NCBI RefSeq assembly: GCF_001445655.1
Contig: NZ_LNBE01000003.1
Coordinates: 1,408,530 to 1,472,529, forward strand
DNA from: Streptomyces roseifaciens
GTDB lineage: Bacteria; Actinomycetota; Actinomycetes; Streptomycetales; Streptomycetaceae
DNA length: 64,000 nucleotides
Direction: 5' to 3'
Both the position numbers and the translations under genes were made by a program. Each line of letters begins with the position of its first letter. Position 1 is the first letter of the stretch. Under the pieces are notes generated by a model. The model was not told the DNA's origin and made no database searches. It saw nothing but the letters and a program-made list of their open reading frames with translations. Of the stretch, positions 42,469 through 57,676 are shown in pieces.

Positions 42469-45400
42469 GTGGTGCTCGCGCGTGTCGAGTTCAAGGTGCT
42501 GGGGCCCCTCGCGGCCGTCGCCGACGGCCGCGTTCTCCCGCTCGGAGGGCCGAAGCAGCGGACCCTGCTCGCCATGCTCCTCGTCAACGCCAACACCGCC
42601 GTCTCCGCGGACCGGCTGTGCGACGCCGTCTGGGGCGAGGCCCCTCCGGCGTCGGCCCAGGCCAACCTCCGCAGCTACGCCGCCGTCCTGCGCAAGGTGC
42701 TCAGCCCCGCCTCCGGCCCGGAGGACGGCCGCGACCGCGGTGGCCCCGCGCCCGGCAGCGGCGAGGACCGGCTGAGCCAGGGCAACGGCGGCTACTGCCT
42801 GCGGGTGTTCCCCGGCGAGGTGGACCTGCACCGGTTCGAGGTCCTCGTCGCCCGCGGCCGCGTCGCCCTCGGAGCGGGCGAGCGCCGGGCGGCGGCCGAC
42901 GCCCTGCAGGAGGCGCTGGACCTGTGGCACGGCAGCCCGTTCGAAGGGGTGGCGCACCACGACGTCCTGCTCGGCGAGGTCGCGCGGCTCGAGGAGTCGA
43001 GGCTGGCCGCCTTCGAGGACTACGCCGAAGCCCGCCTCGCACTCGGCGAGCCCCGCGAGGTGGTGGGCCTCCTGCGCGCGGAGACCGCCCGCTACCCGCT
43101 GCGCGAGTCGCTGTGGGCCAAGCTGATGACCGCGCAGTACCGCTGTCACCACCCGGGCGACGCGCTGCAGTCCTACGCCCTCGCCCGCTCCGCCCTGCGC
43201 GACGAACTCGGCATCGAACCCGGCGACGAACTCCGCAGACTGCATCACGCGGTCCTCACCAGAGACCCGGAACTGGGCGCGCCCCCGCCCCCCGCGGCAC
43301 CCGCACAGCCCGCCCGCCCCGCGGACCTCTGGCAGCCGACCGTCCAAGTCCCCTCCGACGACTCCGACTTCGTCGGACGGAGCCGGCTGATCGAGCACGT
43401 GGCCGGGCTGCTCAGACCCGGGCCCGAACGGCCCCGCACCACGCCCTGCGCCGTGCCCGTCGCGATCCTCACCGGCCTGCCGGGCGTCGGCAAGACCGCC
43501 CTGGCCACCCGCCTCGCCCACCACCTGCGCAACGAGTTCCCCGACGGCCGGCTGTTCCTGCACCTCGACGGCACCCGCGGCCCCCAGCGCCCGCCCGGCG
43601 TCATCCTCGCGGACCTGCTCCTCAGCCTGGGCGTCGCCGGGTCCTCCATCCCCGAGGCCACGGAGGACCGGGCGGCGCTCTACCGCTCGCTGCTGGCCGA
43701 CCGCAAGGTGCTCGTGCTGCTCGACGACGCGCGCGACGAGGCCCAGATCCGCCTGCTGCTCCCCGGCACCCCGGGCAGCGCGGCCCTGGTCACCAGCCGG
43801 GCACGGCTGGCCGGGCTGACGGACGCGCGCCTGATCGACGTCGACCCCTTCGACGACGAGGAGTCGCAGGACCTGCTGCGGCGCATCGTCGGCCCGCAGC
43901 GGCTCGCGGCGGAGCCGGAGGCCACCGGGCGGATCCTCGCCGCCTGCGCCGGCCTGCCCCTGGCGCTGCGCGTCGCGGCGGCGCGGCTCGCCAGCCGCCC
44001 GGACTGGCAGGTCCGCAGGCTCGCCGACCGCCTCGCCGACGAGCGCGGCGTACTGGCCGAGCTCACCGTCGGGGACCTCGCCGTCCGCACCTGCGTCGCC
44101 GCCAGCTACCACGGCCTGGCACCCGACGCAGCCCGCGCCTTCCGCGCCGTCGGGCTGCTCCCTTCACCCGAGTTCCCCGGCTGGGCGCTCTCCGCCCTGC
44201 TCGACGCCGACGGCTCCGCGGCAACCGGCTCTGCGGGCGGCTCCGAAGGCGGCTCCGCGGCGGGCTCCTGCTCCTCCGCCGTCGTGGCGGCCGACCGCGC
44301 CACCGACGCGCTCATCGATGCCAACCTCGTACAGATCGAGTCGGTCGGCGCGCACGGGCAGCCGCGCTACCGCATGCACGACCTCCTGCACGCCTACGCG
44401 GCCGAGCGCGCCGGCGCCGACGAGCCCCGGTCGTGGCGCCGGGCCGCGGTCGCCCGGGTCCTGGACGGCTGGCTCGCGCGCGTGCGCACGGCAGGGGGCC
44501 AGCTCATCCGCAGAGGCACCGGCGGGCACCGGCCCGGCGAGGCGGGCGACCTCGTCGGATGGCTGGAGAGCGAGCGGACGAACCTCGTCACCGCCGTCGG
44601 GTTCGCCGCGGGCGCCGGATACGGCCCGCAGACCGCCGGGCTCGCCGCCGCCCTGGAGGACGTGTGCCACCTGCGGAACTGGTGGGACGAGTGGGAGCAG
44701 GTCGCCCGGGTCGCACTCGACCGTGCCACGGCGGACGGCGACCCCGTCGCCGCAGCCGTCGCCCAGGGCTCCCTCGCCCGGGCCTGCGCCGTACGGGGCC
44801 GGGTCGACGACGCGATGACCCGCTACGCTTCCGCCATCGAACAGCTGGACGCGCTGGGCGAGGAGCACCACGCCGCCCGCCTGCGCATCCACCGCAGCTT
44901 CGCGATCGCCGACCGGGGCATGGCCGGACTCGCCCACGACGACGCCGCCTCCGCCGCGGCCGTGATGAACCGGCTGGGCGACAAGCACGGCCAGGTCATG
45001 GCCCTGCGCAGCCTGGCCTTCGCGCTCGCCTGCCAGGAGCGCGAAGCCGAAGCCGTCGACGCCCTCGAACCGGCGGTCGCGACCGCCGAGCGCCTCGGGC
45101 ACCCGCTCGCCCTCGCCGACGTCCTGCAGCTGCTCGCCTGGGCGGAGATCGGCCACGGCCGCGCCGAACGGGCCGCCCGCCACCTGCACCGGGCCCTGGC
45201 CGAGTACCGGGCGGTGCGGCACCGCCCCGGCGAGGCGTACGCACTGCTGGCCCTGGGACGGATGCACACCGAGCTCGGCGGCCCCGGCCAGGCCGCTTGG
45301 GCGCTCGCCCCGCTCGACGAGGCCGCGGCCGTCTTCGCCGAACTCGGCGAACGCCGCGGCGAGGCGCTCACCGCCCTGTGGCTGGGCAGCACCCACGCCG

Positions 45401-45528
45401 CACTGGGGGACACCGGGCGGGCCGTGAGCCACCTCACCACCGCACTGAGCGGATTCCGCAGCCTGCGCATGCCGTTCTGGGCCGAACGCGCCCAGCAGGA
45501 GCTCGCAGGCCTCACACGGGATGCCTGA
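42469..45528 (+). CDS. Large SARP-family activator (OmpR-HTH + BTAD + NB-ARC + TPR)
   Basis: 1019 residues from GTG 42469 with GAAGGG 10 nt upstream. Residues 1-95 form an OmpR-like winged helix (LGPLAAVADGRVLPLGGPKQRTLLAMLL), 100-265 the bacterial transcriptional activation domain, and 336-343 a P-loop (GLPGVGKT) of an NB-ARC/AAA domain, followed by TPR-like helical repeats to the end. AfsR/DnrI-type activators with an NTPase switch on secondary-metabolite genes. The seven-gene isocyanide operon begins 144 bp downstream, with direct repeats of SARP operator spacing in between. It is therefore the pathway-specific activator by inference. Confidence 0.9.
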   Translation: MVLARVEFKVLGPLAAVADGRVLPLGGPKQRTLLAMLLVNANTAVSADRLCDAVWGEAPPASAQANLRSYAAVLRKVLSPASGPEDGRDRGGPAPGSGEDRLSQGNGGYCLRVFPGEVDLHRFEVLVARGRVALGAGERRAAADALQEALDLWHGSPFEGVAHHDVLLGEVARLEESRLAAFEDYAEARLALGEPREVVGLLRAETARYPLRESLWAKLMTAQYRCHHPGDALQSYALARSALRDELGIEPGDELRRLHHAVLTRDPELGAPPPPAAPAQPARPADLWQPTVQVPSDDSDFVGRSRLIEHVAGLLRPGPERPRTTPCAVPVAILTGLPGVGKTALATRLAHHLRNEFPDGRLFLHLDGTRGPQRPPGVILADLLLSLGVAGSSIPEATEDRAALYRSLLADRKVLVLLDDARDEAQIRLLLPGTPGSAALVTSRARLAGLTDARLIDVDPFDDEESQDLLRRIVGPQRLAAEPEATGRILAACAGLPLALRVAAARLASRPDWQVRRLADRLADERGVLAELTVGDLAVRTCVAASYHGLAPDAARAFRAVGLLPSPEFPGWALSALLDADGSAATGSAGGSEGGSAAGSCSSAVVAADRATDALIDANLVQIESVGAHGQPRYRMHDLLHAYAAERAGADEPRSWRRAAVARVLDGWLARVRTAGGQLIRRGTGGHRPGEAGDLVGWLESERTNLVTAVGFAAGAGYGPQTAGLAAALEDVCHLRNWWDEWEQVARVALDRATADGDPVAAAVAQGSLARACAVRGRVDDAMTRYASAIEQLDALGEEHHAARLRIHRSFAIADRGMAGLAHDDAASAAAVMNRLGDKHGQVMALRSLAFALACQEREAEAVDALEPAVATAERLGHPLALADVLQLLAWAEIGHGRAERAARHLHRALAEYRAVRHRPGEAYALLALGRMHTELGGPGQAAWALAPLDEAAAVFAELGERRGEALTALWLGSTHAALGDTGRAVSHLTTALSGFRSLRMPFWAERAQQELAGLTRDA

Positions 45529-45672: not shown

Positions 45673-46704
45673 GTGTCCGAACTGGCCGCACCCGATATCG
45701 AACTGGCCGCCGTAGAAGTCATCCGGGAGGTCCTGACCCACCAGCGCAGAATGCGGGAGGGCGGATGCACCGGGCGGGTCTGCCTGCGGTGTGTCAGACA
45801 TCACCTGGACGCGGTGCGCAGTGCCATGGAGGCCGGCCGGCGGATCGAATTCGTCCTTCCGGCCTTCCCCACGAAGTCCCCGAACCCGGCCAAGGTGCTC
45901 GGCCCCCTGCCGGACCTGGCCGAGGAACTCGCCCTGCGCTTCCTGAACTCGCTGTGCGAGCGCATCGGCGAGGTCCACCCGCCGGGGGCCGCCATCCTCA
46001 TCTGCTCCGACGGGCGGGTCTTCAACGACCTGCTCGGTGTGAGCGACGAGAACGTCACCGCCTACGCACGCGCACTCGACGCGATGATCAAGAGGATCGG
46101 CGCCACCCACCTCGAACAGTTCAGCCTCGACGACGTCTACCGCGGCGCCGGGCACGAGGACATGCGCAGCATGCTCTCCGCCGGCCACGCGCCGACGCCG
46201 GAAGAGCTGCGCGAGGAGGTACGGGCCGGGGGCGCCCCGCTCGCCATGTACCGGGGCATCACCCGCTTCATGCTGGAGGACCTGTCCGGCCCCGGCTACA
46301 CGGGCACCCGCTCCGCCCTGCAGCGCAAGTGCCGCGACCTCGCGTACCGCGTCATCCAGCGCAGCCGGGCGTGGGGAAACCTGCTGGACCAGCTCTTCCC
46401 CACGGCGATCCGCCTGTCCATCCACCCGCAGCCGTGCAGCACGGGAAAGATCGGCATCCTGCTCGCCGACACCCCCGACACGTGGCTGACGCCCTGGCAC
46501 AGCGTCGCGGTCGCCTCCGGCGGGCGCTTCACGCTCATGAAGCGCGCGGAGGCGGAGGAGGCCGGCGCCGAGCTCGTCCTCGCCGCGGGAATCCCCAGCC
46601 ACTACGTGCTGGAGCCGGCCGTCGAGCCCGCCGTCCCCCGGTCCGCCGCCGTTCCCGGGCCTCCGCCCGCGCACCGCGACCCCTGGAACCAGGCCTGCGC
46701 ATAA
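45673..46704 (+). CDS. Isocyanide (isonitrile) synthase, DIT1/PvcA family
   Basis: 343 residues from GTG 45673 with AAGGGAGG five bases upstream. The DIT1/PvcA pattern is clear: RRIEFVLPAFPTKSPNPAKVLG, GAAILICSDGRVFNDLLGV and a RLSIHPQPCSTGKIGI motif near the C-terminus. Members turn the amino group of an amino acid (Tyr or Trp, in characterised cases) into an isocyanide, taking the carbon from ribulose-5-phosphate. First gene of the operon. By the neighbouring HpaB-type hydroxylase and HpaD-type dioxygenase, tyrosine is the likely substrate. Cytoplasmic. Confidence 0.92.
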   Translation: MSELAAPDIELAAVEVIREVLTHQRRMREGGCTGRVCLRCVRHHLDAVRSAMEAGRRIEFVLPAFPTKSPNPAKVLGPLPDLAEELALRFLNSLCERIGEVHPPGAAILICSDGRVFNDLLGVSDENVTAYARALDAMIKRIGATHLEQFSLDDVYRGAGHEDMRSMLSAGHAPTPEELREEVRAGGAPLAMYRGITRFMLEDLSGPGYTGTRSALQRKCRDLAYRVIQRSRAWGNLLDQLFPTAIRLSIHPQPCSTGKIGILLADTPDTWLTPWHSVAVASGGRFTLMKRAEAEEAGAELVLAAGIPSHYVLEPAVEPAVPRSAAVPGPPPAHRDPWNQACA

Positions 46705-46764
46705 CCGCCCGGCGCACCTCCGGCGTATCCCCCTCATTCCTCTCACCCCCACAGGAGAGCTCCC

Positions 46765-47691
46765 ATGACCGCTGAGCACGTGACAGCCGAGCACGACGCG
46801 GACACCCCCCGCACGGCCGCAGCCGACGCGGCCACAGCCGTGGACGACGTCCTCACCGACCTCCGCTACGGCGTCGCGCCGATCGAACCCTTCGGCCTGG
46901 CGATACAGGCGCTGGAGCCGGGCCTGCACGTCCGCGACCTGCCCGTCGCACCGCTGCGCTCCCTCGTCCGCGAGCACCACCTCGTACTGCTGCGCGACTT
47001 CGACTCCTTCGACGGTCCGGACGAGCTCTCCGCCTACTGCGAGCGCTGGGGCGAGCCCAGCGTGTGGCCCTTCGGCACCGTGCTCGAACTCGTCGAGCAG
47101 GAGAAGCCCGAGGACCACATCTTCGACTCCAGCTACATGCCGATGCACTGGGACGGCATGTACCGCGAACAGATCCCGGAGTTCCAGGTCTTCCAGTGCG
47201 TGAACGCCCCCGGAGCGGAGAACGGCGGAGAGACGACCTTCTCGCACACCACCGCCGTGCTGGAGCGCACCGACCCGCGGACCGTCGGCCGGTGGTCGCA
47301 GGTGACCGGCACCTACCACCGCGCGATGGAGTTCTACAACAGCGTCACCGTCTCGCCGATCGTGACCGCCCACCCCGTCCACGGCGCCCCGGTCATCCGC
47401 TACAACGAGCCCACCGCCGCCGACGACGCCGGATTCGTCAACCACCCCGACCTGCAGTTCACGGGCCTGCCCGACGACGGGATCGCCGAGATGCACCGCA
47501 GCCTGCGGGCCGCGCTGTACGACCCGGCGCACTTCTACGCCCACAGCTGGCGGACGGGCGACATGGTGTTCGCCGACAACTACACGCTGCTGCACGGCCG
47601 GAACGCCTTCACCAGCGGCGCCCCGCGCCACCTGCGCCGCGTCCAGGTGCTCGGCACCCCGGCGCTGGACAACCCGGGGCTGGTGCGATGA
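46765..47691 (+). CDS. PvcB-like Fe(II)/2-oxoglutarate oxygenase (TauD family)
   Basis: 308 residues, ATG with ACAGGAGAGC. Facial triad His128-x-Asp130 (MHWDGMYR) and His277 (YTLLHGRNAF). PvcB-type enzymes desaturate or decarboxylate the isocyanide acid made by the synthase to a vinyl or acrylate isocyanide. It follows the synthase by 60 bp and its last bases overlap the next start (ATGA), so the first three steps form one coupled unit. Confidence 0.9.
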   Translation: MTAEHVTAEHDADTPRTAAADAATAVDDVLTDLRYGVAPIEPFGLAIQALEPGLHVRDLPVAPLRSLVREHHLVLLRDFDSFDGPDELSAYCERWGEPSVWPFGTVLELVEQEKPEDHIFDSSYMPMHWDGMYREQIPEFQVFQCVNAPGAENGGETTFSHTTAVLERTDPRTVGRWSQVTGTYHRAMEFYNSVTVSPIVTAHPVHGAPVIRYNEPTAADDAGFVNHPDLQFTGLPDDGIAEMHRSLRAALYDPAHFYAHSWRTGDMVFADNYTLLHGRNAFTSGAPRHLRRVQVLGTPALDNPGLVR

Positions 47692-49202
47692 CCACCACCG
47701 GCAGCCTGATGACGGGTGACGAGTACCTGGAGAGCCTGCGCGACGGCCGTCAGGTGTATCTGAACGGGGACCGCGTCAAGGACGTCACCCGCCACCCCGC
47801 CTTCCGCAACTCCGCGCTCTCGGTGGCCCGCCTCTACGACGCCCTGCACGACCCGGCAACCTCCGGCGTCCTCACCGGCGTCGACGAGGCCACGGGCATC
47901 CGTACGCACAAGTTCTTCAAGCCCAGCCGCTCGGCGGCCGAGCTGGTGGAGGCACGGGAGGCTATCGCCACCTGGGCGAGGATGAGCTACGGCTTCCTCG
48001 GGCGCACCCCCGAGTACAAGGCCTCCTTCATGGCCGGCCTCGGCGTCAACGCCGACTACTACGGCCCGTACGCCGCCAACGCCACCGCCTGGTACGCCGA
48101 GTTCGCCCGCAAGGCGCTCTACCTCAACCACGTCATCATCAACCCGCCCGTGGACCGCAAGCGGGCGATCCACGACATGGAGGACGTGTTCGTGCACGCC
48201 GTGCGCGAGACGGACGCGGGCGTCGTGGTCAGCGGGGCGAAGATGCTGGCGACGGGGTCGGCGATCACCAACGCGGGCTTCGTCGCCCCCGTCGGATCGG
48301 CGGCCCTCGCGCCCGGCAAGGCGGAGGCCTTCGCCCTGGTCTTCTTCGTCCGCATGGACAACCCGGGCGTGAAGCTCGTCTGCCGCACCCCCTACGCGCA
48401 GCACGCCACGAGCCCTTTCGACGCCCCGCTCAGCAGCCGCTTCGACGAGAACGACAGCGTGCTCCTGCTCGACGAGGCGCTGATCCCTTGGGAGGACGTC
48501 CTCGTTTACCGGGACGTCAAGCGCGCCACCGGCTTCTACGCCACGTCCGGCTTTCCGAACCTGTACAACTTCCAGTCCGGCGTCCGGCTGAGCGTGAAGC
48601 TGGAGCTCATGGCCGGGCTGCTCGCCCGCGGCACCCGGGCCAACGGCACCGACGGGTTCCGCGGGGTCCAGGCCGCCGTGGGCGAGGTCGTCACCATGCG
48701 GGACATGGTGTGGGCCCTGACCTCGGCCATGGCCCACGACCCCGAGCCGGGCAGCGGCGGCACGGTCGTGCCCCGCCTGGAGCACGCCTCCGCGATGCGG
48801 ATGTACAACGCCCAGGTGTGGGACCGCGTCCACGAGCTGTTCGAGACCACGCTCGGCGGAGCGCCCCTCGCCGTGCCCTCCAGCGCCCGCGACCTGGCCA
48901 ACCCCGAACTGCGGCCGCTCATCGACCGCTTCTACCGCGGCGCGGACACCTCCGCCCTCGACCGGATCAAACTCCTCAAGCTGGTGTGGGACGCCATCGG
49001 CACCGAGTTCGGCGGCCGGCACGAGCTGTACGAGCGCAACTACTCGGGCAACGGGGAGCAGGTCCGCCTCGACGCGCTCCGGTGGGCGACCGGGCGCGGC
49101 AGCCTCGCCCGCTACGAGGCGCTCGTACAGGACTGCCTCGACGACTACGACACCGACGGCTGGCGCCGGGGCCCCTGGCGCGACCCCGCCCACACCGACT
49201 GA
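47688..49202 (+). CDS. HpaB/PvcC-like FADH2-dependent aromatic monooxygenase
   Basis: 504 residues from ATG 47688 (4-bp overlap with the oxygenase). Matches the 4-hydroxyphenylacetate 3-monooxygenase large subunit: MTGDEYLESLRDGRQVYLNGDRVKDVTRHPAF at the start, YLNHVIINPPVDR, VVSGAKMLATGSAITNAGFVAPVG and FNLYNFQSGVR-like segments. The family hydroxylates the position ortho to a phenol to give a catechol, using reduced FAD from a separate reductase (the HpaC-like gene at the operon end). In Pseudomonas, PvcC follows PvcB in the same order. It is expected to make a 3,4-dihydroxyphenyl isocyanide. Confidence 0.9.
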   Translation: MTTTGSLMTGDEYLESLRDGRQVYLNGDRVKDVTRHPAFRNSALSVARLYDALHDPATSGVLTGVDEATGIRTHKFFKPSRSAAELVEAREAIATWARMSYGFLGRTPEYKASFMAGLGVNADYYGPYAANATAWYAEFARKALYLNHVIINPPVDRKRAIHDMEDVFVHAVRETDAGVVVSGAKMLATGSAITNAGFVAPVGSAALAPGKAEAFALVFFVRMDNPGVKLVCRTPYAQHATSPFDAPLSSRFDENDSVLLLDEALIPWEDVLVYRDVKRATGFYATSGFPNLYNFQSGVRLSVKLELMAGLLARGTRANGTDGFRGVQAAVGEVVTMRDMVWALTSAMAHDPEPGSGGTVVPRLEHASAMRMYNAQVWDRVHELFETTLGGAPLAVPSSARDLANPELRPLIDRFYRGADTSALDRIKLLKLVWDAIGTEFGGRHELYERNYSGNGEQVRLDALRWATGRGSLARYEALVQDCLDDYDTDGWRRGPWRDPAHTD

Positions 49203-49235
49203 CCCGCCCACACCGACCGAGAACGGAGCACGACC

Positions 49236-51140
49236 ATGTGCGGCATCACCGGCTGGGTCGCCTTCGGCCGCGACCTCACGGCCGAACAGCGGACCGTGGA
49301 CGCCATGACCGACACCCTGGCCCCGCGCGGGCCGGACGCCCGCGGCGTGTGGCTGGACACCCACGCCGCCCTGGGACACCGGCGGCTCGCCGTCATCGAC
49401 CTCGAGCACGGCACGCAGCCCATGCGCACCCCGGAGCCCGGCCCCGGGGACCGGCCCCGCGCCGTCATCTCCTACGGCGGCGAGATCTACAACTTCCGCG
49501 AGCTGCGCGAGGAACTCGTCCTCCTCGGGCACCGGTTCGCCACCCGCAGCGACACGGAAGTGGCCCTGCGCGCCTACCTGCAGTGGGGCACGGACTTCGC
49601 CCGCCGCCTCAACGGCATGTACTCCATCGCCATCTGGGACACCGCCCGCGAGGAGCTGCTCCTGGTACGGGACCGGCTCGGCGTCAAGCCGCTCTTCTAC
49701 CACCCCACGGCCGACGGCCTGCTCTTCGGCTCCGAGCCCAAGGCCGTCCTCGCCAACCCCCTGGCCGACGCCTCCGCCGGCGCGGAGGAGCTGTGCGACG
49801 CGCTGCTGTTCCTGCGCACCCCCGGGCGCGTGCCCTTCCGCGGCATGCGCGAACTGAAGCCTGGCCACCTGCTGCGGGCCGGCCGCGACGGGATCACCGA
49901 GGAGCGCTACTGGGCCCTGGAGTCCCGCCCGCACACCGACGACCTGCCCACCACCGTGGCCACCGTCCGCGAGCTGCTCGACGACATCGTCCCCCGGCAG
50001 ATGGTCGCGGACGTGCCCCTGGTCTCCCTGCTGTCCGGAGGGCTCGACTCCAGCACCGTCACCGCCCTCGCGGCCCGGGCGCGCGCCGCCGACGGCGACC
50101 GCCTGTCCACCTTCTCCGTCGACTTCGCCGGCCACACCGAGAACTTCCGGGCCGACGCCATCCGCCCCACCCCCGACGGGCCGTACGCCCTCGAAGTCGC
50201 CCGGCACGTAGGCAGTGACCACCACGCGATCGTCCTCGACCGCACCCGCCTGCTCGACCCGGCCGTCCGCCGCACCGTCCTCGGCGCCTGGGACCTGCCG
50301 TTCAACTTCGCCGACCTCGACGTCTCGCTGTACCTGCTCTTCGCCGCCGTCCGGCAGCACGCCACCGTGGCGCTCTCCGGAGAGGGCGCGGACGAGGTCT
50401 TCGGCGGCTACCTGTGGTTCTCCGACCCCGAGGCGCGCAAGGCCGAGACCTTCCCCTGGCTCAAGCTGGGCGCCCACCGCGGCCTCGATCCGCGGTCGCT
50501 GTTCCACCCCTGGTTCGTCGACGGGATCGACCTGGCGGAGTACGAGGCCGACCTCTACCGCACGGCGCTCGCCGAGGTCCCCGTCCTGGACGGTGAGAGT
50601 TCCGAGGACCGGCGGACCCGCGAACTGGGCTACCTGACGCTGACCCGCTGGCTGCCCATCCTGCTCGACAAGAAGGACCGCATGGGCATGGCCAGCGGCC
50701 TGGAGGGCCGGGTGCCGTTCTGCGACCACCGCCTCGTCGAGTACGTCTTCAACATCCCCTGGGAGATGAAGACCTTCAGCGGCCAGGAGAAGGCGCTGCT
50801 GCGGGAAGCCGCCTCCGGCCTCCTTCCGCAGTCGGTGCTGCGCCGCAAGAAGGCCGCCTACCCGTCCATCCAGGACCCCGCCTACGACCGGTCCCTCATC
50901 ACCGGCCTCGCCACCGCGGCGGGCGACGGGGACGCACCGCTCAGCCCGTTCCTCGACGGCGACGCGGTACGGCGGATGACTGCCAAGACGGCCACCGGCA
51001 GCCTGTCCGAGTTCGAACGGATCCTCGTGGAGTCCACGGTCCGGATGGACGACTGGATGCGCACGTACGACGTCGAGCTGACCGATGTGGCCGGGCCGAC
51101 CGATGCGGTCGGACCGGCCGATGTGAAGGGAACGCACTGA
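49236..51140 (+). CDS. Asparagine-synthetase-like amidotransferase
   Basis: 634 residues. Class II glutamine amidotransferase at the N-terminus with Cys2 (MCGITGW) as nucleophile, then a synthetase domain with the PP-loop SLLSGGLDSSTV and GEGADEVFGGYLWF. The domain order and length match AsnB. Natural-product AsnB homologues amidate acids or close lactams by adenylating a carboxylate. In this operon a carboxylate formed by ring cleavage or retained from tyrosine is the candidate acceptor. Its stop shares one base with the next start. Confidence 0.9.
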   Translation: MCGITGWVAFGRDLTAEQRTVDAMTDTLAPRGPDARGVWLDTHAALGHRRLAVIDLEHGTQPMRTPEPGPGDRPRAVISYGGEIYNFRELREELVLLGHRFATRSDTEVALRAYLQWGTDFARRLNGMYSIAIWDTAREELLLVRDRLGVKPLFYHPTADGLLFGSEPKAVLANPLADASAGAEELCDALLFLRTPGRVPFRGMRELKPGHLLRAGRDGITEERYWALESRPHTDDLPTTVATVRELLDDIVPRQMVADVPLVSLLSGGLDSSTVTALAARARAADGDRLSTFSVDFAGHTENFRADAIRPTPDGPYALEVARHVGSDHHAIVLDRTRLLDPAVRRTVLGAWDLPFNFADLDVSLYLLFAAVRQHATVALSGEGADEVFGGYLWFSDPEARKAETFPWLKLGAHRGLDPRSLFHPWFVDGIDLAEYEADLYRTALAEVPVLDGESSEDRRTRELGYLTLTRWLPILLDKKDRMGMASGLEGRVPFCDHRLVEYVFNIPWEMKTFSGQEKALLREAASGLLPQSVLRRKKAAYPSIQDPAYDRSLITGLATAAGDGDAPLSPFLDGDAVRRMTAKTATGSLSEFERILVESTVRMDDWMRTYDVELTDVAGPTDAVGPADVKGTH

Positions 51141-52114
51141 TGCACGCCATCGAGATCCGCGAGACCGGCGGACCCGAGGTCCAGCTCTACGTCGAGAAGC
51201 CCGACCCGGGGCAGCCCGGCGAAGGGCAGATCCTCGTCGAACTCGCCGCGGCCGGAGTGAACTTCATCGACCTCTACCGGCGCGAGGGCCGCTATCCGCT
51301 GCCCGTCCCCTGCGTGCCCGGCGAGGAGGGCTCCGGCATCGTCCTGGCCGCCGGCCCCGGGGTCACCCGCTTCGCGCCCGGCGACCGCGTCGCCTGGACG
51401 ACCGTGCTCGGCAGCTACGCCGAACGGGTCCTCGTACCCGAGGACAAGGCCATCGTCGTGCCCGACGCCATCGACCTGCGGACGGCCGGCGGCGTGCTCG
51501 TCCACGGCATGACCGCCCACTTCCTCGCCCACGACTCCTACCCGGCCCGGGAGGGCGAGACGGTCCTCGTCCACGCCGCCGCCGGCGGTGTCGGCCTCCT
51601 GCTCACCCAGATGCTCAAGCGGCGCGGCGTCCGCGTCATCGGCACGGTGTCCACGGAGGGGAAGGAGCGCACCGCCCGCGCCAACGGCGCCGACGAGGTC
51701 GTCCGCTACACCGGGACCGACGACCTGGCCGCCGAGGTCCGCGCGCTCACCGGCGGGGAGGGCGTCCACGCGGTCTACGACGGCGTCGGCGCCGCCACCT
51801 TCGACGCGAGCCTCGCCTCGCTGCGCACCCGCGGCACGCTGGTCCTCTTCGGGGGCGCCAGCGGCGCCGTGCCGCCCGTCGACGTGATGCGGCTGCTGTG
51901 GGGCGGCTCGCTGACTCTCACCCGGCCCTACCTGGAGCACTTCCGGGCCACCGTCGAGGAGTTCGAACGGCGGGCGGGCGAGGTGTTCCGGGGGATCGCC
52001 GACGGCACGCTGACGTTCACCGTCGCCGGCACCTACCCCCTCGCCGAGGCGCACCGCGCGCACACCGACCTGGCCTCCCGCCGCACCTCCGGAAAGCTCC
52101 TCCTCATCCCGTAA
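51140..52114 (+). CDS. NADPH quinone oxidoreductase / zinc-free MDR reductase
   Basis: 324 residues. The MDR fold shows VPGEEGSGIVLAAGPGV near the N-terminus and the nucleotide-binding VHAAAGGVGLLLTQM (AxxGxxG); the zinc-ligand Cys of alcohol dehydrogenases are absent. It reduces quinones or alpha,beta-unsaturated carbonyls with NADPH. Its one-base overlap with the AsnB gene shows that it belongs to the operon. It may reduce an enone or muconate-type intermediate from ring cleavage. Confidence 0.88.
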   Translation: MHAIEIRETGGPEVQLYVEKPDPGQPGEGQILVELAAAGVNFIDLYRREGRYPLPVPCVPGEEGSGIVLAAGPGVTRFAPGDRVAWTTVLGSYAERVLVPEDKAIVVPDAIDLRTAGGVLVHGMTAHFLAHDSYPAREGETVLVHAAAGGVGLLLTQMLKRRGVRVIGTVSTEGKERTARANGADEVVRYTGTDDLAAEVRALTGGEGVHAVYDGVGAATFDASLASLRTRGTLVLFGGASGAVPPVDVMRLLWGGSLTLTRPYLEHFRATVEEFERRAGEVFRGIADGTLTFTVAGTYPLAEAHRAHTDLASRRTSGKLLLIP

Positions 52115-52125
52115 AGGAGACGTCC

Positions 52126-53037
52126 ATGGGCGACATCGCCGGTGCGGGCCTGCTCTCGCACGCGCCCGTCATCATGTTCCCCGAACCCGCCCGGATCGAG
52201 GCCAACGGCGGCCGCGACTTCACGCTCGCGACCGGCCTGGAGCAGCTCCGGCGCGAGGTGACCGACCCGGCGGAAGGCGCGCTGGAGTACGACACCGTCG
52301 TGGTCTTCGACTCCCACTGGGCGACGACCACCGAGGCCGTCATCACCGCCCACCCGCGCCGTACGGGCCTGTTCACCTCCGACGAGATGCCGGGCGCGAT
52401 CAGCCGGCTCCCGTACGACCTCCCCGGCGACCCGGAACTGGCCCACGCGGTCGCCGGGCTGGCGGAGGAGCGGAAGGTGTGGATCGCCGCCAACGACGAC
52501 CCGCACCTGCCGATCCACTACGCGACGCTCAACCTCTGGACGTACCTCGGACAGGGCGCCGGCGCGGGCACGGCCGGCGGCAAGGCCTGGGTGTCCGTCT
52601 CCGTCTGCCAGACGGCGACCACCGAGGACTTCCTCGGGATCGGCCGGATCGTGGGGGAGGCCGTCGGCGGCCTCGACCGCAAGGTGCTGCTGCTCGCCTC
52701 GGGCGGCCTCTCCCACCGCTTCTGGCCGCTGTCCGAACTGCGCAACCGCATGGCCGGGGACCCCGCCAACATCGTCACCGCCGAGGCACGGGCGGCGGAC
52801 GAACAGCGGATCGCGTGGCTGGAGGCGGGCCGGCACGACCAGGTGATCCGGACCATGCCGGAGTACCTGCGGTACGCACCCGAGGCGCGGTTCGGCCACT
52901 ACCTGATGCTGGCGGGTGCGCTGGGCGGCGAGGCGTGCGCGGCGCGCGGCCGCCGGTTCGGCGCGTACGAGAACGGGATCGGGACCGGCCAGGTCCACCT
53001 CTGGTTCGACCTGCCGGCCGGCGACGGGGGAAGGTGA
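52126..53037 (+). CDS. HpaD-type (class III) extradiol catechol dioxygenase
   Basis: 303 residues from ATG 52126 with AAAGGAGACG. It is homologous to 3,4-dihydroxyphenylacetate 2,3-dioxygenase (LigB/HpaD fold): metal-site region LLSHAP (His12), VVVFDSHW (His64), catalytic ASGGLSHRF (His197) and the C-terminal GTGQVHLWF. Family enzymes cleave catechols next to the hydroxyls using Fe(II) and O2. Eleven bases separate it from the reductase gene upstream and 7 from the HpaC gene. No HpaE/F/G/H catabolic genes follow, so it likely works in biosynthesis. Confidence 0.9.
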   Translation: MGDIAGAGLLSHAPVIMFPEPARIEANGGRDFTLATGLEQLRREVTDPAEGALEYDTVVVFDSHWATTTEAVITAHPRRTGLFTSDEMPGAISRLPYDLPGDPELAHAVAGLAEERKVWIAANDDPHLPIHYATLNLWTYLGQGAGAGTAGGKAWVSVSVCQTATTEDFLGIGRIVGEAVGGLDRKVLLLASGGLSHRFWPLSELRNRMAGDPANIVTAEARAADEQRIAWLEAGRHDQVIRTMPEYLRYAPEARFGHYLMLAGALGGEACAARGRRFGAYENGIGTGQVHLWFDLPAGDGGR

Positions 53038-53044
53038 AGGACCG

Positions 53045-53524
53045 GTGCTCACCGACGAACGGCTGCTGCGGACCTGCCTGGGGCACTTCGCCACCGGCGT
53101 CACGGTGGTGACGTGCGACGTCGACGGCGCCCCGCACGGGGCCACCGTCAACGCCTTCACGGCGGTCTCGCTGGACCCCGCGCTGGTGCTGGTCTCCCTG
53201 CACCGCCGCAGCAAGGCCGGCCGGCACCTCGCCGGCGGGCCCGAGGGCAGGCCGTTCACGGTGAACGTGCTCGGCGAGGACCAGAAGGACCTCGCCGAGC
53301 ACTTCGCGGGCCGGCGCACGGCGGCACCGCCCCGGTGGGCACCCCGCCCGCCCACCGGCCTCGCACCCCGCCTCGCGGGCTCGCTCGCGACCCTCGCCTG
53401 CACGCCGTGGGCCGCGTACGACGGGGGAGACCACGTGCTCGTCGTGGGCCGGGTCGAGGAGGCCGGGTACCGGGAGGGCGGCCGGCCGCTGGTCTTCTAC
53501 GAAGGAGAGCTCAGGGGGCTGTAG
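53045..53524 (+). CDS. HpaC-like flavin reductase
   Basis: 159 residues from GTG 53045, GAAGGA upstream, 7 bp after the dioxygenase stop. It has RTCLGHFATGVTVVTC near the N-terminus, then GATVNAFTAVSLDPALVLVSLHRRSKAG, the flavin-binding pattern of HpaC/NTA reductases, and ends VEEAGYREGGRPLVFYEGEL. It provides FADH2 to the HpaB-like hydroxylase four genes upstream, completing a two-component monooxygenase. Last gene of the operon. Confidence 0.92.
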   Translation: MLTDERLLRTCLGHFATGVTVVTCDVDGAPHGATVNAFTAVSLDPALVLVSLHRRSKAGRHLAGGPEGRPFTVNVLGEDQKDLAEHFAGRRTAAPPRWAPRPPTGLAPRLAGSLATLACTPWAAYDGGDHVLVVGRVEEAGYREGGRPLVFYEGELRGL

Positions 53525-55639: not shown

Positions 55640-57676
55640 GTGTTCCTGCGCCGCAGACGCGTCCGTCGACTGCGTCGACTCAGCGTCGTCGCCCTCCTCC
55701 TCGGCGTCGTCGCCGCCGTCGCCGCGGGCCCCGCCCGGGCGACGCCCGATGCCGAATCCCGCAAGCCGCACCCCCTCGTCCAGCCGATCGATCCTCAGCA
55801 CTGGCGCAACCCCGACGACATGACCTGGGCCGAATACCGCTCGGTCCCCGGCACGAGCTGGGCCGACCCGGACCGCAAGCCCACGCAGCGCAAGTTCAAG
55901 GGGGCCCTGGTCCTCCTGGACTACCCCGACGAGGAGTTCTCCGTCAGCAAGCCGCCCGGCGCCGCGCGGTTCGGCAATCCGCTGCCCGCCGCGTCCGGCA
56001 TACCCCGCGCACAGGTCCCCAAGTTCTACGAGGACTTCCTCAACAAGCCCGGTGCGCTCAACCGCGGCCACACCATCAACGAGTACTGGATGGAGGACTC
56101 CGGCGGCCGCGTCGGCGTCGGACTGACCTCCTTCGGCGTGTACCGCATGCCGTGGAAGTCGTACCAGTACGGCATCGAGCCCGGCATGAACCCCGGCGCG
56201 TGCCCCGTGGGCGACACCTGCGGCAAGGACATCCGCGCCGACGGCAAGCGGGCCTGGGTCGACGAGGTGGGCGCCGACAAGGCCGGCGAGTTCGACTTCG
56301 TCTTCTACCTCACCGCCGGCGTGGACGAGTCGTCCGCCTGGCAGGAGTTCGGGCAGATGAAGTTCCGCTCCGAACGGGACGTGCCGGCCGCCTGGGGGCC
56401 GCCGTTGCCCATCGCCTCCGGCCTCAACTCCGCCAGGACCCGCTACGTGCCCTGGACGTCCTGGCAGGCGGCCGCCCGCATCTGGCCCAACGCGGCGAAC
56501 GGCTCCTCCACCCAGGCCGAGAGCTCCGGCATGGCCACGTTCGCCCACGAACTCAGCCACATCCTGGGCATCGGCGACAACTACAACAACCCCTACGGGA
56601 CCCCGCTCAGCCGCGCCTACACCGGCATCTGGGGCATGCTCTCCCGCGGTTCGTTCAACGGCCCCGGCGGGCCGCACACCCGCTGGCAGATACCCGCCAC
56701 CGCCGGCGGCTCCATGGGTGCCCAGCATGTCCTGCGGGACAAGATGAAGCTCGGCATCGTCGACGAGAAGAACGTCCTGCGCCTCGACCGCGACGCCCTC
56801 AAGAACTCCGGGCTCGTCGTCGCCCGCGTCACCGCACGCTCGGCCCCGCCCGGCGAGAAGGGCCTCACCGGCGTCAACATCACCATGGGCCGCGACCTGT
56901 CCCCGGCCTGCGACCGCACCACCGACCCCCTGTGCGACGGCGGCGGTTACGACAACTACACCGTCGAGGTCGTCGACCGCATGGGCATGGACTCCTTCAC
57001 CCCGGACAGCGGCGTCCTGCTCAGCAAGACCAAGAACGCGGACCGGGCCCCGTTCGCCTGGGTGATCGACGCGCACCCCGAGGACATCGGCCTGCTGGAC
57101 TTCACCCGTCCCGACGGCACCCCGCAGAAGATCACCATGGGCGACTACCGGCAGCTCAGCGACGCGCTCTTCCACGCGGGCGCCGACTCCGGCAGCTCCT
57201 ACGAGTACGTCGACCGGGCCAACCGGCTGCACTTCTACGTCCTGAACGTGCAGCGCGACGCCACCGGCGTGCTCTCCTACGACATCGGCGTCAAGTCCCT
57301 GGACGGCGCGGGGCCGCAGGCCCGCGGGCTCGCACTCGGCCGCGGCACGGTGAAGAGCGACCCCGCCAAGGGGCGGGCCGTGTGCACCTTCGGCCTCGCC
57401 AACACCGGCAAGGCCGCCCCGCAGAGCGAACCCCTGCTGTCCTCCGACGTCTACCGGCTGTCCGCCACCGCCTCCGGGCGCGGCTGGTCCGCCTGGCTCC
57501 CCAACCGCCTGACCACCGCGGCCGCCGGCTCCTCGGTCCCCGTCGACGTCGCCGTCACGGCCGGGTCGGGCGCGGACCGGAAGGGCACCGTCACCCTCAC
57601 CGCGCGCTCGGAGAGCGACCCGAACAGGACGGCCAGGGCCACGTGCTCGCTGACGAACCCGGGCAGGTCCACCTGA
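55640..57676 (+). CDS. Secreted M6-family (immune inhibitor A-like) metalloprotease
   Basis: 678 residues from GTG 55640 (AAGAGGTGAGCC). Long twin-arginine/Sec-like signal (MFLRRRRVRRLRRLSVVALLLG). Zinc site HELSH at about residues 303-307 (FAHELSHILGIGDNYNNPYG), where the local AESSGMATFAHELSH matches the M6 protease active-site context. A beta-rich C-terminal region with VTLTARSESDPN closes it. It degrades proteins outside the cell. Confidence 0.9.
   Translation: MFLRRRRVRRLRRLSVVALLLGVVAAVAAGPARATPDAESRKPHPLVQPIDPQHWRNPDDMTWAEYRSVPGTSWADPDRKPTQRKFKGALVLLDYPDEEFSVSKPPGAARFGNPLPAASGIPRAQVPKFYEDFLNKPGALNRGHTINEYWMEDSGGRVGVGLTSFGVYRMPWKSYQYGIEPGMNPGACPVGDTCGKDIRADGKRAWVDEVGADKAGEFDFVFYLTAGVDESSAWQEFGQMKFRSERDVPAAWGPPLPIASGLNSARTRYVPWTSWQAAARIWPNAANGSSTQAESSGMATFAHELSHILGIGDNYNNPYGTPLSRAYTGIWGMLSRGSFNGPGGPHTRWQIPATAGGSMGAQHVLRDKMKLGIVDEKNVLRLDRDALKNSGLVVARVTARSAPPGEKGLTGVNITMGRDLSPACDRTTDPLCDGGGYDNYTVEVVDRMGMDSFTPDSGVLLSKTKNADRAPFAWVIDAHPEDIGLLDFTRPDGTPQKITMGDYRQLSDALFHAGADSGSSYEYVDRANRLHFYVLNVQRDATGVLSYDIGVKSLDGAGPQARGLALGRGTVKSDPAKGRAVCTFGLANTGKAAPQSEPLLSSDVYRLSATASGRGWSAWLPNRLTTAAAGSSVPVDVAVTAGSGADRKGTVTLTARSESDPNRTARATCSLTNPGRST

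Follow-up and report, generated by a model that had tools for sequence, protein, structure and literature searches.

The best-described relatives of the locus analysed here are the paerucumarin pathway of Pseudomonas aeruginosa, encoded by pvcABCD, in which pvcA, pvcB and pvcC follow one another in that order, and the rhabduscin/byelyankacin-type pathways, whose vinyl isonitriles are glycosylated. To our knowledge, the known bacterial PvcA-type tyrosine isonitriles all retain their aromatic ring. HpaB, HpaC and HpaD, on the other hand, are textbook enzymes of 4-hydroxyphenylacetate breakdown. Rhabduscin/byelyankacin-type pathways combine an isonitrile synthase (IsnA) with an Fe/2OG enzyme (PIsnB); vinyl-isonitrile PvcB homologues of this kind carry Lys or Arg together with Asn or His at two diagnostic positions, at which P. 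aeruginosa PvcB has Leu and Cys (PMC9467999). This rule is predictive only, and its authors’ single mutations failed to switch the product (PMC9467999).

In the window, a stretch of 64,000 nucleotides from Streptomyces roseifaciens, seven co-directional ORFs occupy positions 45673-53524 of the + strand (Table 1). The original prediction, made from the letters alone, had described seven genes in one direction with two overlapping pairs and short gaps, and coordinates, strand and spacing all proved correct: the gaps measure 60 (PvcA-PvcB), -4 (PvcB-HpaB, overlapping), 33 (HpaB-AsnB), -1 (AsnB-QOR, overlapping), 11 (QOR-LigB) and 7 nucleotides (LigB-HpaC). Its family assignments were likewise borne out by a Pfam profile search, in which all seven proteins scored above the cut-offs for their families; PvcA, for example, reached 269 bits against DIT1_PvcA (PF05141; cut-off 26.4) and covered positions 1-272 of the 273 in the profile, that is, its full length.

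Table 1 Genes of the operon and the neighbouring regulator gene in the window
Feature	Position	Strand	Family evidence
AfsR/SARP-family regulator, probable cluster-situated activator	42469..45528	+	BTAD, NB-ARC, TPR, Trans_reg_C (Pfam)
PvcA-type isonitrile synthase, GTG start	45673..46704	+	PF05141 E 6.9e-80; 3e59 296 bits
Fe/2OG desaturase, PvcB/PIsnB family	46765..47691	+	TauD (Pfam); 3eat PvcB 291 bits; 7tcl 243 bits
HpaB/PvcC-type phenol ortho-hydroxylase, two-component flavin type by family	47688..49202	+	HpaB_N + HpaB (Pfam)
AsnB-type glutamine-dependent amidotransferase	49236..51140	+	GATase_6/7 + Asn_synthase (Pfam)
QOR, MDR-family quinone/enone reductase	51140..52114	+	ADH_N + ADH_zinc_N (Pfam)
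LigB (class III) extradiol dioxygenase, HpaD-like	52126..53037	+	LigB domain (Pfam)
HpaC-type flavin reductase, GTG start	53045..53524	+	Flavin_Reduct E 1.7e-34 (Pfam)

Against the narrower NCBIfam equivalog models, HpaB (560 bits, cut-off 885), HpaC (HpaC_Thermus, 119/200), LigB (HpaD_Fe, TIGR02298, the DHPA 2,3-dioxygenase, 114/316) and PvcA (the L-tyrosine isonitrile synthase NF045653, 308/600) all scored below the cut-off, so that these four are best regarded as family members of unproven orthology, and tyrosine as the presumed substrate of PvcA. The SARP regulator also fell below the AfsR cut-off (522/1430 bits), while AsnB exceeded that of asn_synth_AEB (478 bits vs 267). The nearest solved chains to HpaB were 4oo2 (named chlorophenol-4-monooxygenase), 6qyh and 6eb0 (HPA 3-monooxygenase), and those to QOR included 4rvs (318 bits, the nearest) and the 2-haloacrylate reductase 1wly (222 bits). 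A search for tandem repeats gave nothing useful.

The first three genes had been matched to Pseudomonas pvcABC. In the kinds of gene and their order this holds, and the P. aeruginosa structures 3e59 (PvcA) and 3eat (PvcB) are the best solved relatives of the window PvcA and PvcB. The match does not extend to the diagnostic residues of PvcB: a residue alignment places Arg at PIsnB K107 and Asn at PIsnB N188, the vinyl-isonitrile combination, rather than the Leu and Cys of the paerucumarin enzyme, which makes isocyanoacrylate. These residues predict that the window PvcB forms a decarboxylated vinyl isonitrile. Among 24 cassette rows only the two from Burkholderiaceae carried Leu and Cys, and their PvcBs fall in the clade of the Pseudomonas and Erwinia PvcBs included in the tree (SH-aLRT 100); as these two are of the acrylate type, the tyrosine carboxylate would remain in place there. 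Mixed signatures (Arg with Cys or Gly) were seen in 3 of the 18 reference PvcBs. As these were chosen by hand among the 120 relatives listed for the Paraburkholderia PvcB, the set is biased towards proteins close to it; five Streptomyces PvcBs from outside cassettes were added to the tree as tblastn segments in which X replaces any stop. The HpaB of the Paraburkholderia cassette shares 74-75% identity with three rows named Pseudomonas.

The operon further differs from the paerucumarin genes in that AsnB, QOR and LigB come after them, and from the rhabduscin/byelyankacin-type pathways, in which the phenol ring is retained, in adding a hydroxylase, an extradiol dioxygenase, an amidotransferase and a reductase. 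Of 279 LigB relatives, 80 loci were kept, and 23 of these hold the cassette that joins isonitrile genes to LigB. In 21 of the 23, each with the same kind of LigB, pvcA, pvcB, hpaB, asnB, qor and ligB appear in the same order and on the same strand; the other two (L072 and L075) are cut by contig ends and keep this arrangement in the part that remains. Because the order recurs in this way, the pairing of isonitrile and ring-cleavage genes is not attributable to chance. The hosts are 19 actinomycetes, 2 Burkholderiaceae, 1 gammaproteobacterial MAG and 1 cyanobacterial MAG, and the sharing of six genes in one order by such distant bacteria suggests a natural-product pathway. A match to the SARP regulator (52-93% identity) accompanies 16 of the 19 actinomycete cassettes and none of the four others; an HpaC match follows LigB in 14 of the 19 and, again, in none of the four. 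Two of the three actinomycete cassettes lacking the regulator match are those cut by contig ends. Several of the 80 loci lie on short contigs (the shortest of 5710 bases), so that a neighbour absent there may lie beyond the contig end, and as flanking ORFs were listed for eight cassette loci, a further conserved gene, such as one for an exporter or a cyclase, is possible. The distances of the six cassette proteins are correlated (r 0.82-0.97 over 22 taxa, computed without a control family), to which we give little weight since vertical descent alone would yield high values; some proteins were aligned from too-early starts (PvcA of L073 and L079, HpaB of L083, others less), the extra residues falling in gap columns of this test.

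The window LigB has the domain, fold and conserved metal residues of a class III extradiol dioxygenase, and the metal-site residues are invariant both in the cassette LigBs and in their relatives from catabolic loci (alignment of 21 of the 25 cassette rows, with L072, L074, L075 and L142 omitted, 15 of the 57 others and 6 database proteins). The 57 related LigBs, of HpaD type, show 56-61% identity, and the cassette LigBs form one group separate from them. The genomic company also differs. All 57 related LigBs adjoin an aldehyde dehydrogenase and 55 an FAA hydrolase, whereas neither lies beside LigB in any of the 23 cassettes. Nor did a scan of ten window proteins, covering the operon and its immediate neighbours, turn up either of them; the operon thus lacks the semialdehyde dehydrogenase and FAA hydrolase that adjoin the dioxygenase in a meta-cleavage catabolic operon.

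For AsnB the nearest solved chain is the hydroxyamidotransferase 7ylz, which we take to be TsnB9 of trichostatin biosynthesis; it matches residues 1-576 of the 634 at 586 bits, whereas E. coli AsnB (1ct9) reaches 146. The N-terminal MCGI is conserved in 25/25 rows. TsnB9 and its homologue SaHAT are reported to use free carboxylic acids as substrates (PMC13418202). As the isonitrile is predicted to be decarboxylated, the acid on which AsnB acts would most simply be the one released by ring cleavage; in the Burkholderiaceae cassettes, the tyrosine carboxylate would offer a second possible target.

Taken together, the genes present, the order they share, the families they belong to, the diagnostic residues and the LigB grouping lead us to propose that the cassette encodes one biosynthetic pathway to a ring-cleaved, amidated and reduced isonitrile, a reading to which we assign a probability of about 0.7, with its reactions, their order and the product all inferred from the genes. 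PvcA would convert tyrosine to its isonitrile, and the PvcB homologue would desaturate this with loss of CO2 to give 4-(2-isocyanovinyl)phenol (145.0528; all masses are computed, neutral and monoisotopic). Hydroxylation by HpaB with HpaC would then produce 4-(2-isocyanovinyl)catechol (161.0477), and LigB would insert O2 next to the catechol hydroxyls, probably on the side that bears the side chain (2,3, HpaD-like), to form an isonitrile-bearing 2-hydroxymuconate semialdehyde (193.0375). The fold of LigB is closest to that of a 2,3-cleaving enzyme, which does not settle the position of the cut. AsnB would amidate the new carboxylate (192.0535) and QOR would reduce a conjugated C=C bond (194.0691). 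Since the cassette lacks an aldehyde dehydrogenase, the aldehyde group may persist and cyclise, to a pyran-, dihydropyridine- or pyridine-type ring or, after a 4,5 cut, to a five-membered carbocycle. The core of the original prediction, a single pathway that forms a dihydroxyphenyl isonitrile and cleaves its ring, has good support in the order shared across phyla, the LigB grouping and the missing catabolic partners; amidation and reduction, which it offered as alternatives, probably both belong to the pathway, AsnB and QOR being found in 23/23 loci.

The cassette could instead comprise two unrelated neighbours: isonitrile synthesis by PvcA and PvcB, and breakdown of a simple phenol as a carbon source by HpaB, HpaC and LigB. 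In NCBIfam, the last three do match best to models named after 4-hydroxyphenylacetate breakdown enzymes, but hpaB sits between pvcB and asnB wherever a contig shows all three genes, and we know of no place for AsnB and QOR in a meta-cleavage catabolic route. Given this, and with gene order conserved across phyla, catabolic partners missing and the LigBs grouping apart, we set aside both chance neighbours and an isonitrile operon that merely adjoins one for phenol degradation, and regard this account as highly improbable. Another reading is disposal, in which LigB would open the catechol isonitrile, ending its action or protecting the producer, and AsnB and QOR would neutralise the reactive semialdehyde acid. 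A portable detoxification unit of this kind fits the one Streptomyces genome (G018) in which asnB-qor-ligB lies apart from pvcA-pvcB-hpaB, as well as the occurrence of the triplet with two kinds of isonitrile module. Elsewhere, however, the triplet stands in line with the synthesis genes as far as contig ends permit, and spending ATP and glutamine on the amidation of waste would be odd, which makes disposal rather unlikely in our view. In G018 itself, where a FAD_binding_3 flavoprotein lies upstream of the separate triplet, asnB-qor-ligB could act on another substrate.

Two further alternatives concern the product. Were AsnB a true hydroxyamidotransferase, the pathway would lead to an isonitrile hydroxamate, a metal chelator. 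By far its closest solved relative bears that name, a likeness known here from sequence, and TsnB9-type enzymes are described as forming hydroxamates, in one case with free benzoic acid as substrate (PMC13418202). The TsnB9 route, however, also uses TsnB6 and TsnB7, which produce the glutamyl hydroxamate (PMC13418202), and the six-gene core has no candidate for either, so that we consider a hydroxamate very unlikely. LigB might also cut at the 4,5 position and the vinyl isonitrile cyclise onto the aldehyde so formed, which would yield bacterial analogues of trichoviridin and dermadin, the cyclopentyl isonitriles of Trichoderma. The cassette would provide the vinyl isonitrile as well as an enzyme to open the ring, and by our own atom mapping, the Trichoderma skeleton has the number of carbons expected if decarboxylated tyrosine contributes a C8 unit whose aromatic ring is lost. 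Isonitriles of Trichoderma have been deduced to derive from tyrosine, as a paper citing Baldwin 1981 states (PMC10834931). We consider this outcome unlikely.

Returning to the proposed biosynthetic pathway, asnB-qor-ligB would act as a ring-cleavage module paired with two kinds of isonitrile module, one for vinyl isonitriles in actinomycetes and others and a Pseudomonas-like one for isocyanoacrylates in Burkholderiaceae. We lean slightly towards a general form of this proposal, in which asnB-qor-ligB is a new, transferable module for the ring opening, amidation and reduction of isonitrile catechols derived from tyrosine, so that a pathway widespread in bacteria turns an aromatic amino acid into non-aromatic isonitriles, a new class of natural product. 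Deliberate ring opening, if true, would yield new isonitrile scaffolds, give a biosynthetic role to enzymes whose family is best known for degradation, and perhaps offer insight into how five-membered-ring isonitriles like those of Trichoderma arise. With its six genes, the conserved core is compact and clearly delimited enough for expression in one piece, and leaving out single genes would put each step to a direct test.

In line with the original claim that no such combination had been described, titles and the beginnings of abstracts in the open-licence literature contained no description of a pathway joining an isonitrile synthase to an extradiol dioxygenase. Two papers list an isonitrile locus in the Burkholderia pseudomallei group as putative isonitrile cluster 7 (PMC9040570, PMC9821509), and one of them cites Brady 2007 for isnA-containing clusters (PMC9821509). 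A LigB from B. thailandensis shares 69% identity with the window LigB, and a PvcB from this species 70% with the PvcB of the Paraburkholderia cassette; a Burkholderia relative of the cassette may already have been noted as a putative isonitrile cluster.

Among 72,556 plasmid records, tblastn with the window LigB matched 46, of which a single record reached 60.3% identity and the other 45 stayed below 60%; the two best adjoin an aldehyde dehydrogenase. With a B. thailandensis LigB it matched 5, all below 60%, and plasmid-borne cassettes were discounted. In a sample of 396 genomes from the window’s phylum, LigB matches with an E value of 1e-100 or lower were confined to 3, and as only the window’s own LigB reached cassette-level identity, the cassette is rare in this sample. 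Related LigB proteins from Amycolatopsis and Crossiella (P0039, P0061; 64-67% identity) suggest, by protein identity alone, that more cassettes may exist outside Streptomyces.

ORF calls, sequence and Pfam matches bore out the original prediction of seven co-directional genes with two overlapping pairs (-4 and -1 bases) and short gaps elsewhere (7 to 60 bases). The host genome is 8.64 Mb and the G+C content of the window 68-76%. The gene for an AfsR/SARP regulator (1019 aa) ends 144 bases upstream of the operon, and an AAA ATPase gene lies downstream, one that is common to only one of the 23 loci described below. NCBIfam equivalog cut-offs were not reached by the PvcA, HpaB, HpaD-like and HpaC proteins of the window.

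Coordinates and sources of the features discussed
Feature	Location	Source	Basis
Operon: PvcA, TauD/PvcB, HpaB, AsnB, quinone reductase, LigB, flavin reductase	45673-53524 (+)	window	ORF calls, sequence, Pfam
678-aa protein matching immune inhibitor A peptidase M6 weakly (23.9 bits; cut-off 22)	55640-57676 (+)	window	
FAD_binding_3 flavoprotein upstream of split triplet	L142:6215-7387 (+)	G018	
Second PvcA-family gene	L145:9671-10690 (-)	window's genome (G000:C8)	Pfam
Cytochrome P450 gene, overlapping the preceding	L145:10683-12407 (-)	window's genome (G000:C8)	Pfam
Non-actinomycete cassette locus	L080	Burkholderia sp. TSV86	
Non-actinomycete cassette locus	L082	Paraburkholderia sp. BL21I4N1	
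Non-actinomycete cassette locus	L081	gammaproteobacterial MAG	
Non-actinomycete cassette locus	L084	MAG named Cyanobacteria	

Co-occurrence of isonitrile synthase and LigB genes, the check proposed at the outset, was found in actinomycetes and beyond. When 84,980 species genomes were scanned by pattern for LigB relatives, 279 were found; among the best 80 of these, which were compared with the window proteins, the cassette was present at the 23 top loci (64-90% identity to the window LigB). Its six genes kept a single order and strand, pvcA-pvcB-hpaB-asnB-qor-ligB, at 21 of them, with aligned segments spaced by at most 176 bases, while contig ends cut the cassette at L072 and L075, where the remaining part is kept. 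Near the other 57 LigBs (56-61% identity), some of them on short contigs, PvcA, PvcB, HpaB, AsnB and QOR had no match at E 1e-8, and HpaC had a match at a single locus, L089. The gene set is thus a real, conserved unit, and both its conservation across phyla and its separation from degradation loci are new. Records named Streptomyces or (once) Streptosporangium supplied 19 of the 23 loci. Because HpaC matches follow LigB at 14 of these 19 (L072 ends too early to tell) and at none of the four others, HpaC is probably replaceable; no match follows LigB in S. hiroshimensis (L062), the nearest of the 23. Many LigB relatives (e.g. database proteins P0003 and P0042) are publicly annotated as catechol 1,2-dioxygenase, an intradiol name unfit for the LigB family.

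The central idea, that an isonitrile catechol is made and its ring then cut open, is probably right. The kind of isonitrile can be predicted from PvcB: Kim et al. 2022 (PMC9467999) associate K/R plus N/H at two positions with vinyl isonitrile and Leu plus Cys with isocyanoacrylate, and report that point mutants did not switch the product. Aligned to PIsnB (7tcl), the window PvcB has Arg and Asn, which would predict a vinyl isonitrile. Vinyl-isonitrile residues occur in 22 of 24 cassette PvcB rows, the two Burkholderiaceae having Leu/Cys. Since three of 18 picked reference PvcBs are mixed (13 Leu/Cys, two Arg/Asn), the rule is only a guide. If the rule applies, tyrosine has lost its carboxylate before the ring is opened, and AsnB would have to use the acid that LigB creates; this predicted target and the predicted vinyl isonitrile are among the new points. 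Five non-cassette Streptomyces PvcBs (L017, L030; L004, L014, L018), on long tree branches, carry Val/Leu, Val/Ala or Ala/Ala, neither published type, and the PvcB homologues P0185, P0203 and P0234, with Arg plus Cys or Gly, are likewise unplaced by the rule.

The window AsnB scored 586 bits against 7ylz, which is named hydroxyamidotransferase and which we take to be TsnB9, versus 146 bits against E. coli asparagine synthetase B. All 25 rows keep both the glutaminase start MCGI and the SGG(L/I/V)DSS loop. TsnB9 acts in the biosynthesis of trichostatin, and one of its homologues uses ATP to activate free benzoic acid (PMC13418202). AsnB therefore probably turns a free acid into its amide; a rival reading has AsnB form a hydroxamate instead. 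QOR is similar both to quinone reductases and to 2-haloacrylate reductase, and a conjugated muconate semialdehyde would be a plausible substrate.

Across 295 Streptomyces genomes, a PF05141 gene was present in 59, and 72 encoded a LigB with an E-value no worse than 1e-15. All eight genomes with a LigB of at least 75% identity, the window's own included, had a PF05141 gene (hypergeometric p = 1.7e-6, treating related genomes as independent), about 5.5 kb from the LigB in seven; at least four of the eight are the same records as loci L063, L066, L074 and L077 of the first scan. A PF05141 gene occurred in 17 of the 64 genomes whose LigB was only distant, which is near the background of 59 in 295. 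The cassette is split in the Streptomyces genome G018, with AsnB-QOR-LigB (89, 86 and 79% identity) on one contig and PvcA-PvcB-HpaB (53, 61 and 78%) on another, both at least 5 kb from a contig end. This points to two modules, one making the isonitrile catechol and the other opening the ring. Because a FAD_binding_3 protein, which might supply another catechol, lies upstream of the split triplet, a different substrate is possible there.

Burkholderiaceae cassette PvcBs form a single clade with the Pseudomonas, Erwinia and Pectobacterium PvcBs included in the tree (SH-aLRT 100). The LigBs of these Burkholderiaceae loci fall inside the cassette group. Among the 120 matches listed, the HpaB of the Paraburkholderia locus shares 74-75% identity with three Pseudomonas-named rows but no more than 64% with any row named Streptomyces. 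Taken together, the cassette PvcBs do not form one clade, with six label changes in a tree where some reference rows may also be cassette members. Joining of the asnB-qor-ligB triplet to two isonitrile modules fits, as does its loss in the Pseudomonas and Erwinia lineages; under either history the triplet is found with both kinds of PvcB, and its pairing with two isonitrile modules is also new.

The original prediction knew of no described pathway with this combination, and our search of open-licence papers found none that links an isonitrile synthase with an extradiol dioxygenase. PMC9040570 and PMC9821509 mention that the Burkholderia pseudomallei group has an isonitrile locus, citing Biggins et al. 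2014 and Brady et al. 2007, and we found no product for it in the literature. Since a LigB from B. thailandensis shares 69% identity with that of the window, a relative of the cassette may have been shown there before, as genes. Trichoderma isonitriles have been deduced to be tyrosine-derived (PMC10834931).

The window's genome also holds the second PvcA-family gene overlapping a P450 gene at L145, with no PvcB match in the surrounding 19.5 kb. Among the 29 other top-scoring PvcA loci from Streptomyces, five of them cassette loci, 18 hold a P450 with 66-83% identity to part of this one. Yeast has a DIT1/DIT2 pair, and the L145 pair looks like a bacterial counterpart.
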